This document shows, piece by piece, positions 10,635 to 30,026 of a DNA stretch of 64,000 nucleotides. The notes under the pieces were generated by a model. The model was not told where the DNA came from. It was given only the letters and a program-made list of their open reading frames with translations, and did no database searches. A program made the translations under genes and the position numbers. Location of the stretch: NCBI RefSeq assembly GCF_000244895.1, contig NZ_CM001441.1:682001-746000 (forward strand), in the 5' to 3' direction. This DNA comes from Desulfosporosinus youngiae DSM 17734. Its GTDB lineage: Bacteria; Bacillota; Desulfitobacteriia; Desulfitobacteriales; Desulfitobacteriaceae. Each line of letters begins with the position of its first letter. Position 1 is the first letter of the stretch.

Positions 10635-10639
10635 TATAT

Positions 10640-10912
10640 AAACCGTTGAAAGGGAAGTAAAACCGCATGACCAGCCTCACAGAGAGTCGAGTAAGGTGGA
10701 AGCTCGACAGGTAACGGAGCGTGTAAATGGGCCCTAGAGGGTGGTGTGAAAGAGCTTAAGCTTCAGTAGCTGCCAACGCAAAGCCAGCGTTAAAGGGCTA
10801 AGGGTGTGTTGGCACTCTGCATGAGAGGATGCATTAGCTTTATGCATCAACTAAGGTGGTACCGCAGATTAACGTCTGTCCTTATTTAAGGATAGGCGTT
10901 TTACTTTTGTGT
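10640..10912 (+). ncRNA. T-box riboswitch, candidate tryptophan specifier (UGG)
   Basis: tRNA-sensing leader. The T-box antiterminator sequence AAGGTGGTACCGC is at 10853-10865. The competing terminator is an AACG...CGTT stem (10871-10900) followed by TTTTACTTTT. Stem I carries the AGAGAGT motif (10681), a GTCGAG/CTCGAC apical stem and the GGTGGAAGC loop. In the descending side, GTGTAAA-TGG (10721-10730) puts UGG at 10728-10730 in the usual place for the specifier. The downstream genes are a TrpXYZ-type importer, which independently predicts tryptophan. The specifier position is inferred by eye. Confidence 0.9.
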
Positions 10913-27472: not shown

Positions 27473-28285
27473 TTAGTAAAGATCATCCCGGCGTTGTTTT
27501 AAGATCGGCAGGGACTCTCTAACCTCCTCAATCTGGGTCAAATCGAGATCAACGATCAGAATTCCCGGCTTTTCGTCCAGTTGTGCAAGGACTTGGCCCC
27601 ATGGATTGACAGCTAAGGAGTGACCATAAGCTACATAGGAAGCCTGAGGATTGCGAGCGGGCGAAGTGCCCAGCATGAAGACTTGGTTGTCTAAGGCACG
27701 GCTCCTAAACAGCAATTCCCAATGAGCCGGCCCCGTAGTCATGTTAAAAGCGGCAGGTACAATAACTACGCTGGCTCCGTCTTTAGCCATTTTTCTTGTC
27801 AATTCCGGGAAGCGAATATCATAGCATATTTCTACTCCGAATTTGCCCCAGGGTGTTTCAAACACTGTGGCAGTATTGCCCGGGGACAATACCTTTGATT
27901 CAGTAAACTCGATACCATTTTTGACATTTATATCGAATAGATGGGCTTTGCGATGGGTGGCAATAATCTCCCCTTTTGGGTTAAATATAACACTGGTATT
28001 GTAGATCAGTTCCCCATCTAATTCCGGAATCGAGCCACCTACGAGAAAAAGGCCGTGGGTGCGAGCCAGGTCAGCAAGAAGGTTTGTTGTTTCTCCAGAG
28101 GGTATTATCTCAGCATAGTCCCGAAAGGAATGTATATCATAGGGGCAATTGAACATTTCCGGTAAGACTGCCATATGCGCACCGCCTGCGGCGGCGGCCT
28201 TTAACATCAGTGCTGCTTGGTTAAGATTTTCTTGCTTGTCTTCCTTAACAGGCAATTGACATAATGCTGTTTTTAGCTTCATCAC
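27473..28285 (-). CDS. Carbon-nitrogen hydrolase, omega-amidase (Nit2)-like
   Basis: 270 residues. The nitrilase-superfamily catalytic triad is Glu43 (LPEMFNCPYD), Lys (HRKAHLFDI) and Cys (GVEICYDIRFPEL). DIRFPEL and RARALDNQVF-type segments fit the omega-amidase/Nit2 branch, which hydrolyses alpha-ketoglutaramate or alpha-ketosuccinamate made by glutamine or asparagine transaminases. An aminotransferase gene lies 600 bases away, which is at least compatible. Two adjacent ATGs at the start (28285, 28282). Confidence 0.88.
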   Translation of the reverse strand: MMKLKTALCQLPVKEDKQENLNQAALMLKAAAAGGAHMAVLPEMFNCPYDIHSFRDYAEIIPSGETTNLLADLARTHGLFLVGGSIPELDGELIYNTSVIFNPKGEIIATHRKAHLFDINVKNGIEFTESKVLSPGNTATVFETPWGKFGVEICYDIRFPELTRKMAKDGASVVIVPAAFNMTTGPAHWELLFRSRALDNQVFMLGTSPARNPQASYVAYGHSLAVNPWGQVLAQLDEKPGILIVDLDLTQIEEVRESLPILKQRRDDLY

Positions 28286-28493
28286 TAGTAACCCCCTAAA
28301 ATGATTTTCTTACACATCATATAGGTAAATAGCAGACGTTTATGTAAATATTACGAAAGCCTTCGTCTTAAGTGTAAGCTCGATGACTATCTCTGGACGC
28401 TAAAAAATGGTTTTAGAAATTACGGATATTTAAGAATGAAAATCAAATTTAATGCCATACTAACCATTAGTTTAGTAACAGGAGGGTCTGACA

Positions 28494-28721
28494 ATGAAAA
28501 ATGTAACTATGTTTACCAACAACACCTGACCATATTGCACCGTAGCGAAGAAGTTTCTTTCGCAGAACAATATCCCTTTTGAGGAAAAGAATATTAGTAC
28601 GGATCAAGATGCTTTACAAGAATTACAACGCCGTAATATCAATAGTGTACCAACTTTCTTAGTAGGGGATGAAACTGTCGTAGGTTTCAACAAGGATAAG
28701 ATCCTCGCTCTTCTCCACTGA
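28494..28721 (+). CDS. Glutaredoxin-like selenoprotein (Sec encoded by in-frame UGA)
   Basis: Reading from ATG 28494 behind a clear ribosome site (aggagg, 28480-28485), the frame meets TGA at 28527-28529 and then continues to a second TGA at 28719. Read through, it gives 75 residues with active site T-U-P-Y-C, where U (residue 12) replaces the first Cys of the glutaredoxin CPYC motif. Downstream are the thioredoxin-fold landmarks SVPTFLVGD (cis-Pro loop) and VVGFNKDKIL, all in one frame with no other lesion. Size and layout match short NrdH/Grx3-like glutaredoxins. A candidate bSECIS follows the UGA. Selenocysteine is inferred, not proven. Confidence 0.85.
28545..28563 (+). promoter_or_regulatory. 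Candidate bacterial SECIS hairpin of the glutaredoxin gene
   Basis: GCGAAGA-AGTT-TCTTTCGC: four upper base pairs (28548-28551 with 28556-28559), one bulged U (28560), three lower GC pairs. The apical loop AGTT has G in its first two positions and lies 22 bases after the UGA, within the 16-37 base range known for bacterial SECIS elements. Confidence 0.55.
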
Positions 28722-28736
28722 ATATAATGGTATTGT

Positions 28737-28766
28737 ACCGCTGGGCTTTAAGGCTCAGCGGTTTTA
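28737..28766 (+). terminator. Terminator of the selenoprotein gene
   Basis: ACCGCTGGGC (28737-28746) pairs with GCTCAGCGGT (28753-28762), followed by TTT. A complete expression unit supports the gene being real. Confidence 0.85.
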
Positions 28767-28805
28767 AATTGCCGTGATCAATTGTTTTCACCAAATTCTT
28801 AAAGA

Positions 28806-28842
28806 ACAAGACTGGAAGCTTTTATCGCTTACCAGTCTTATT
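28806..28842 (-). terminator. Terminator of the aminotransferase gene
   Basis: Minus strand stem AAGACTGGTAAGC with GCTTCCAGTCTT, followed by GTTCTTT; lies 10 bases after the stop. Confidence 0.7.
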
Positions 28843-28850
28843 CTTGACGG

Positions 28851-30026
28851 TTATCGTAGTTTCTTTAATGTCGTTTCTATACGTTCTAAGGCTTTTTGAA
28901 TATTCTCCACAGAATTTGCATAGGAGAACCGGAGATATCCTTCACCGTAGGAACCAAAAGCGGTACCTCCTAAACAAGCAACGCCTGCCTCGTTTAAAAG
29001 ATAATCTGCAATTTCTTTGCTATTCTTACCGAAGGATTTTATATTCGGAAATACGTAGAATGATCCCTCAGGCAACAAGCAGCTTACTCCAGGGATCGAG
29101 TTTAAGCCATTTACCATAAGATCGCGGCGCTTTTTAAACTCAGCAACCATACTATCGACGTCGTTTTGGGGCCCTGTGAGTGCTTCTTTACCAGCCATCT
29201 GTGTAAAGGCCGAGGTACAAGAGTTAGAATTAACCATAAGCTGAGCAATACGAGCAGAAATTTCCTCATGCATCACCCCATAGCCTAACCGCCATCCAGT
29301 CATAGCATAGGTTTTAGAAAATCCATCTAAGATAATCGTCCAATCCTTCATTTCCGGCAATGAAGCAATAGAAAGTGGATGTGTATCTCCATACACGATG
29401 CGATCATATATTTCATCGGAAAGAACCAGGATTTCTTTTCCTCGAACCAAGTCCGCAATAGATTTGATATCTTCATTTGTGAGAACACCGCCGGTAGGGT
29501 TACCTGGAGAATTAATAATGAGCATTTTTGTTTTGGGTGTAATCAACTGAGCGAGCTCATTGACATCTAAACGGAACTGGTTTTCTTCCCGCAAGGGTAT
29601 GGGGACGGGCTTTCCGCCAACAAAACGAATGACGGATTCATAGATCGGAAAGCCAGGATTCGGATAAATAACTTCATCACCTGGATTGACGGTTGCCATA
29701 ATGGAGAAAAACATAATGGGTTTTCCGCCGGGGACGATAACAACTTCCTCGGCAGAAGCATCAACGTTTTTATGATTACGAATATAGGAGGCGATTGTTT
29801 CTCTTACTTCCGGAATGCCGGGCGCGGGGGTATAGTGGGTGTATCCGCTGGTTAGAGCATGGCATGCGGCTTCAATAATATTCTTAGGAGTATCAAAGTC
29901 CGGCTCGCCAATCTCCAGGTGAACAATATCCATTCCCTGCGCTTCCAACTTTTTAGCCTTGGCTAAAACTTCAAAAGCTGTTTCGGTGCCAAGCAACGCC
30001 ATTCTATCTGCAAGTACTTTTTTCAT
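28851..30026 (-). CDS. Pyridoxal phosphate aminotransferase, aspartate/alanine type
   Basis: 391 residues, class I family Igamma. Signatures: LEIGEPDFDTP, the Asn motif INSPGNPTGG, SDEIYDRIVY and the PLP-Lys motif GFSKTYAMTGWRLGY. Substrate range of this group is broad (Asp, Ala, aromatic). ATG 30026 follows aaaggatg. It lies 66 bases downstream of the D-2-hydroxyacid dehydrogenase on the same strand, likely in the same operon. The pair could interconvert an amino acid, its keto acid and its hydroxy acid. Confidence 0.88.
   Translation of the reverse strand: MKKVLADRMALLGTETAFEVLAKAKKLEAQGMDIVHLEIGEPDFDTPKNIIEAACHALTSGYTHYTPAPGIPEVRETIASYIRNHKNVDASAEEVVIVPGGKPIMFFSIMATVNPGDEVIYPNPGFPIYESVIRFVGGKPVPIPLREENQFRLDVNELAQLITPKTKMLIINSPGNPTGGVLTNEDIKSIADLVRGKEILVLSDEIYDRIVYGDTHPLSIASLPEMKDWTIILDGFSKTYAMTGWRLGYGVMHEEISARIAQLMVNSNSCTSAFTQMAGKEALTGPQNDVDSMVAEFKKRRDLMVNGLNSIPGVSCLLPEGSFYVFPNIKSFGKNSKEIADYLLNEAGVACLGGTAFGSYGEGYLRFSYANSVENIQKALERIETTLKKLR

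Follow-up and report, generated by a model that had tools for sequence, protein, structure and literature searches.

A UGA-interrupted glutaredoxin gene of Desulfosporosinus youngiae very probably encodes a selenocysteine enzyme kept across the genus

Glutaredoxins with selenocysteine (Sec) in a UxxC active site are among the published selenoproteins, and bSECIS-like hairpins accompany them in the relevant passages of PMC1794560, PMC1088965, PMC13188914 and PMC9312934. One such protein, cGrx1, is described in the parts of PMC7642778 that bear on it as a selenoprotein in its native form, bearing a U(or C)PXC motif as well as Cys13 and Cys16; it is proposed to reduce Sec-MsrA, and its crystal structures have Sec replaced by Cys (PMC7642778). 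A 2026 review, in its passages on distribution, places Sec-glutaredoxins in a limited number of species, and its main text does not name Desulfosporosinus (PMC13188914). Among the papers searched, none joined Desulfosporosinus, selenoprotein and glutaredoxin; 8 combined Desulfosporosinus with selenocysteine. The gene described here shares the UxxC motif and the bSECIS-like hairpin with the Sec-glutaredoxins that the survey passages list from Geobacter, Alkaliphilus metalliredigenes, Moorella and the Sargasso Sea, and it is well supported that it joins an established family as a further case and is not a new kind of system.

The window, which is the whole 64,000-nucleotide stretch of the D. youngiae DSM 17734 genome that was analysed, contains at 28494-28721 on the plus strand what is almost certainly the gene for a small selenocysteine glutaredoxin, Sec being put in, as we infer, at an in-frame UGA. 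Its features, in window positions, are as follows.

28480..28486, plus strand: ribosome-binding site AGGAGGG, read from the sequence; most of the orthologues printed are also purine-rich upstream
28494..28721, plus strand: predicted Sec-glutaredoxin gene, 75 residues with UGA as Sec, TGA stop included
28527..28529, plus strand: in-frame UGA (predicted Sec) opening the UPYC active site; the codon is shared by all 16 short-form orthologues compared
28545..28563, plus strand: bSECIS-type hairpin within the codons of residues 18-24 (AKKFLSQ)
28552..28555, plus strand: apical loop AGUU of that hairpin, its G (28553) invariant in Sec forms
28737..28762, plus strand: intrinsic terminator, an 11-pair stem followed by TTTAAATTGC

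The original prediction, made from the letters alone, had called this a hidden selenocysteine glutaredoxin with UGA at the first catalytic Cys; what it had observed is confirmed and its interpretation is supported. The ribosome site precedes the ATG at 28494, the TGA at 28527-28529 is followed by 63 sense codons up to the final stop (TGA, 28719-28721), and the translation with TGA as Sec begins MKNVTMFTNNTUPYCTVAKKFLSQ. The terminator it had attributed to the gene is likewise present, as the single one found in the search against a shuffle mean of 0.3; no sigma-70-type promoter was found in 28286-28850 (shuffle mean 2.0). The hallmark of glutaredoxins is a C/U-P-x-C active site and a conserved Val-Pro ahead of the third strand. 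Here UPYC occupies residues 12-15 and VP residues 52-53, V52 and P53 are invariant in a 17-row alignment, and the read-through protein matches Pfam Glutaredoxin (PF00462) with E 5.3e-15 and 55.8 bits, the gathering score being 22.9. The best PDB match, over window-protein residues 2-74, is 7c10 (phmmer E 7.7e-21; chain segment YTSNTCPHC...VKEFLSEN), which from its residue numbering we take to be cGrx1 of Clostridium oremlandii; the two Cys of 7c10 fall on the Cys13 and Cys16 positions given for cGrx1, within CPHC where the window protein has UPYC. The NCBIfam UXX-star (seleno)protein families are also glutaredoxin-like, but the motif here is UxxC and the score against NF041212 is 52.5 bits, below the curated cut-off of 66; the YruB-type model TIGR02196 (72.7 against 88.55 bits) and the NrdH model TIGR02194 (57.4 against 85.75 bits) likewise gave scores under their cut-offs.

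Under the standard code, without recoding, no ORF of at least 50 residues overlaps the gene, as would be expected of a glutaredoxin pseudogene stopped by a nonsense mutation or of a sequencing error at 28527. Comparison with relatives makes either origin vanishingly unlikely. All 16 short-form orthologues compared, counting the window, have TGA as the internal codon; as final stop, 8 use TGA and 8 TAA. They belong to one genus, judged by named relatives to be Desulfosporosinus, and comprise the window and 15 of the 17 short forms found. Excluded were L037, which lies at a contig edge, and L038, which lacks an ATG and has an altered end; TGA occupies the site in these two as well. The 15 further genomes thus carry the same TGA in a gene that is otherwise undamaged, so that the disabling changes named in the original prediction as contrary evidence are missing and a base-calling error at 28527 is very unlikely. 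Across the 15 orthologue pairs, dS relative to the window starts at 1.07 and reaches saturation, dN lies between 0.020 and 0.210, and after the TGA dN/dS is 0.015-0.080 in the 12 of 15 pairs with estimable dS. These ratios indicate that the frame after the TGA is evolving as protein under purifying selection, which, like the selenocysteine genes described below, argues against a pseudogene or an error. What looks broken under the standard code is thus very probably, from this sequence comparison, a working Sec-glutaredoxin kept across the genus, and an apparently broken gene would be a conserved, selected redox enzyme gene of sulfate-reducing Desulfosporosinus.

In the wider family, 35 of 45 genomes match the window protein, and the 39 matches with E below 1e-19 comprise 36 with one TGA and 3 with none. 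Each of the 36 TGAs falls on the first residue of the active site, where reading of the loci gave TGT, TGT and TGC in the other 3; for one of the 36 (L049) locus reading gave a stop without its codon, and its TGA is taken from the family search. A sample of 398 genomes of the phylum contained 100 with a match at E 1e-15, and the 107 matches divide into 62 with one TGA and 45 without, the position of the TGA having been checked in the window's family and in 20 fetched loci (active site in 20/20). The comparison of homologues proposed in the original prediction gave U at the site in 20 of 20 UGA-bearing and C in 20 of 20 UGA-less homologues fetched, so that the UGA does fall on a catalytic Cys position. 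UGA forms of glutaredoxin are common in this branch, as against the limited number of species in the passages of the review that treat them (PMC13188914). A single such gene is therefore less surprising, and the branch is useful for the study of Sec gain and loss.

The genome, a single contig of 5.66 Mb, encodes the machinery that selenocysteine would require, and the original prediction's call to look for sel genes was answered by selA, selB, selD and a tRNA-Sec. The selA match scores 556.8 bits, and that of selB 360.9 bits, or 387.4 when its in-frame neighbour is included (the whole 636-codon frame). Two selD matches lie above the cut-off: one of 406.4 bits, with an in-frame TGA of its own in KAGUGCKIG, adjoins selA (L021), and one of 370.2 bits, free of stops, is elsewhere in the genome (L022). 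The tRNA-Sec (L004) has anticodon UCA, was called by ARAGORN and scores 65.1 bits against the Rfam tRNA-Sec model; of the three matches that pass the Rfam cut-off it is the only tRNA-Sec, as L005 and L006 are tRNA-Ser according to ARAGORN. Among the 45 family genomes, selA has a match in 38, above the cut-off in 36, and it is present in 28 of the 30 with a UGA glutaredoxin (E below 1e-19). The two in which it was not found, G030 (85% complete) and G041 (90% complete), go against the rule but are incomplete; the other five selA-less genomes have no match to this protein, whether UGA or Cys.

That UGA might be read here as Trp or Cys, or passed by near-cognate read-through, in either case without Sec, is favoured to some extent by the Cys that stands at the site in all the fetched UGA-less homologues. 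The gene itself also ends in UGA, as do 7 of the 15 other short-form orthologues, and for this reason a general reassignment of the codon is ruled out. Against the narrower possibility stand the encoded SelB and tRNA-Sec and a hairpin that tracks the UGA, and we consider a reading as another residue very unlikely.

The hairpin, 19 bases long, starts 15 bases past the UGA and has seven pairs; a single U of the 3' arm, at 28558 in the minimum-energy fold, stays unpaired. The published bSECIS model, in the portions that set out its parameters, has a G in the first two positions of a loop of 3-9 nt lying 16-37 nt from the UGA, a stem of 4-16 bp and an energy cut-off of -7.5 kcal/mol. In geometry the hairpin agrees with that model, its loop AGUU lying 22 nt past the UGA on seven pairs with one bulge; its energy of -6.2 (33 nt) or -6.9 (54 nt) kcal/mol falls short of the cut-off. 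Taken alone, folding energy does not reach significance (z -1.11, with folds as good in 33 of 200 shuffles), and single-sequence folding is ruled out as proof of a SECIS. Of the SECIS-like element originally proposed, the loop G, the unpaired U and the 22-base spacing thus held up. The exact UGA-plus-hairpin pattern occurs at only two places in the genome, both of them UGA glutaredoxins, and a control pattern at none.

It is by comparison among relatives, and not by its own energy, that the downstream hairpin convinces, and there it behaves as a bacterial SECIS. Taken over 110 rows, all 66 with TGA have the loop G, against 9 of 44 with Cys, and where the residue concerned is K or E, G is the third base in all 66 Sec rows and in 8 of 15 Cys rows. 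All five outer pairs are intact in 33 of 46 TGA rows against 0 of 24 Cys rows in a set of 70, made up of the window, its own paralogue and 68 named loci. Those loci were drawn by two peptide patterns, one of them AK[EK]FLSQ[NH], so that the peptide they share is partly a product of the search; their codon choice is not. The 110 rows are these 70 and the 40 of a recoding test described below; many are close relatives, L101/L144 and L096/L136 are apparently the same loci, and because the rows are related the p values given here are guides only. L048, L056, L057 and L058 were read separately and stand outside both counts under those ids.

Codon choice in the hairpin points the same way. At residue-invariant positions of the 16 orthologues a single codon is used at 3 of 6 hairpin positions (Ala GCG, Phe TTT, Ser TCG) against 0 of 28 elsewhere (Fisher p 0.003). 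When folding is measured against random synonymous recodings, the mean z is -1.31 for 20 Sec loci and -0.13 for 20 Cys loci (one-sided Mann-Whitney p 0.0006), with p 0.05 reached singly by 6/20 Sec and 2/20 Cys rows. These 40 loci were drawn from the phylum sample's 107 matches by profile rather than by peptide, the Cys set being the 20 best and the TGA set 20 of the 30 best outside the window's family; G394, G302, G253, G167, G349, G147, G293, G317, G411 and G391, together with five rows of the window's family, were passed over by hand for the TGA set. Distinct hairpin strings number 21 for Sec and 41 for Cys. When one arm is slid, pairing in the 21 Sec hairpins falls from 82% to 43-68%, whereas the 41 Cys hairpins pair at 52% in register and at up to 61% when slid, with no such peak. 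At pairs 2, 3 and 4 there are Sec hairpins in which both partners have changed and pairing is kept (e.g., GCAAGAGAGTTTCTCTTGA, ATGCGAGAGTTCCTCGCGC).

In these sequence patterns the loop G and the stem fade where Cys replaces Sec. Most of the stem is kept in several Cys rows (L092, L112, L120, L155 and L162), and L092 has exactly the hairpin found in the Sec form L096; near-intact hairpins in Cys forms such as L092, L120 and L162 could reflect a recent loss of Sec. It may also be, although we would place this a little below an even chance, that an AKEFLSQ-like segment is kept near-constant across several phyla, in divergent UGA proteins, by the SECIS that its codons form, and that it is freed upon the change from Sec to Cys. 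If so, the family would document the loss of Sec to Cys and would let RNA constraint be separated from protein constraint. Paired Sec and Cys homologues would also be a natural test of what a bacterial SECIS requires.

The second UGA glutaredoxin of this genome (L002, 2462664-2462885, minus strand) has UPHC at its active site, is 55% identical to the first and carries the same hairpin. It is longer, with a C-terminal CxxC...CxxC (Cys4) tail that gave only matches below the Pfam cut-offs with zinc-ribbon models. Both UGA forms, short and long, occur in six genomes of the genus Desulfosporosinus. Long forms with Cys (CPSC or CSSC) are found in three genomes of the Desulfosporosinus family (L056, the same locus as L085, L057 and L058) and in L083; all four have lost the loop G, and their peptide has become AKNFLFQ.

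By homology the window protein would be a thiol-disulfide oxidoreductase in which Sec is the nucleophile and Cys15 resolves. On the machinery, codon and hairpin read from the sequence, SelB with Sec-tRNA(UCA) would recognise the hairpin 15 bases past the UGA, and Sec would be put in at residue 12 in place of termination. By analogy with the mechanism described for cGrx1, the Sec selenolate would then attack disulfides of client proteins, and the adduct would be resolved by Cys15. The client proposed for cGrx1 is Sec-MsrA, but the sole MsrA found in this genome is of the Cys type (GCFW, no in-frame stop), and so the cGrx1/Sec-MsrA pairing is not reproduced here. As for glutathione, the one model tried, that of the bifunctional glutathione ligase (TIGR01435), gave two partial matches in the genome, both below the cut-off. 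The better of these is an 885-residue ORF with an ATP-grasp part (L175) beside a 309-residue ORF, which we presume to be cyanophycin synthetase and cyanophycinase.

Sec insertion competes with termination at UGA, and from this it follows that the codon might also serve as a selenium switch, giving a stop after 11 residues without selenium and the enzyme with it. Such a role is compatible with the reading of UGA as Sec; the findings give no sign that the ratio serves as a control or that the 11-residue peptide has any activity, and we think this role rather unlikely.

Among plasmids, 24 records match the protein, all at less than 60% identity, the highest among the best 10 of the 24 being 49.3% (Acetoanaerobium noterae). 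The viral_contigs set contains no exact UGA-plus-hairpin match, and a profile search of it gave one weak locus (28% over residues 1-46). Nearly the same hairpin, with AKEFLSQ, is also seen in divergent UGA glutaredoxin-like proteins (L113, L116, L121 and L124-L131, a set partly chosen by peptide), whose records are labelled Chloroflexi, a delta proteobacterium, Riflebacteria, Bacillus-like genera and one Pseudomonas sp.

Both flanking ORFs, 27473-28285, which we read as a nitrilase-type hydrolase, and 28851-30026, which we read as an aminotransferase, are on the opposite strand, and the Sec-glutaredoxin gene therefore stands alone. Near 34 named loci, which take in the long paralogue, other genera and short contigs, the available sequence contains an aminotransferase at 10 and a hydrolase at 7. 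Elsewhere in the window, a T-box leader lies at 10637-10886 on the plus strand (Rfam RF00230, 98.4 bits).
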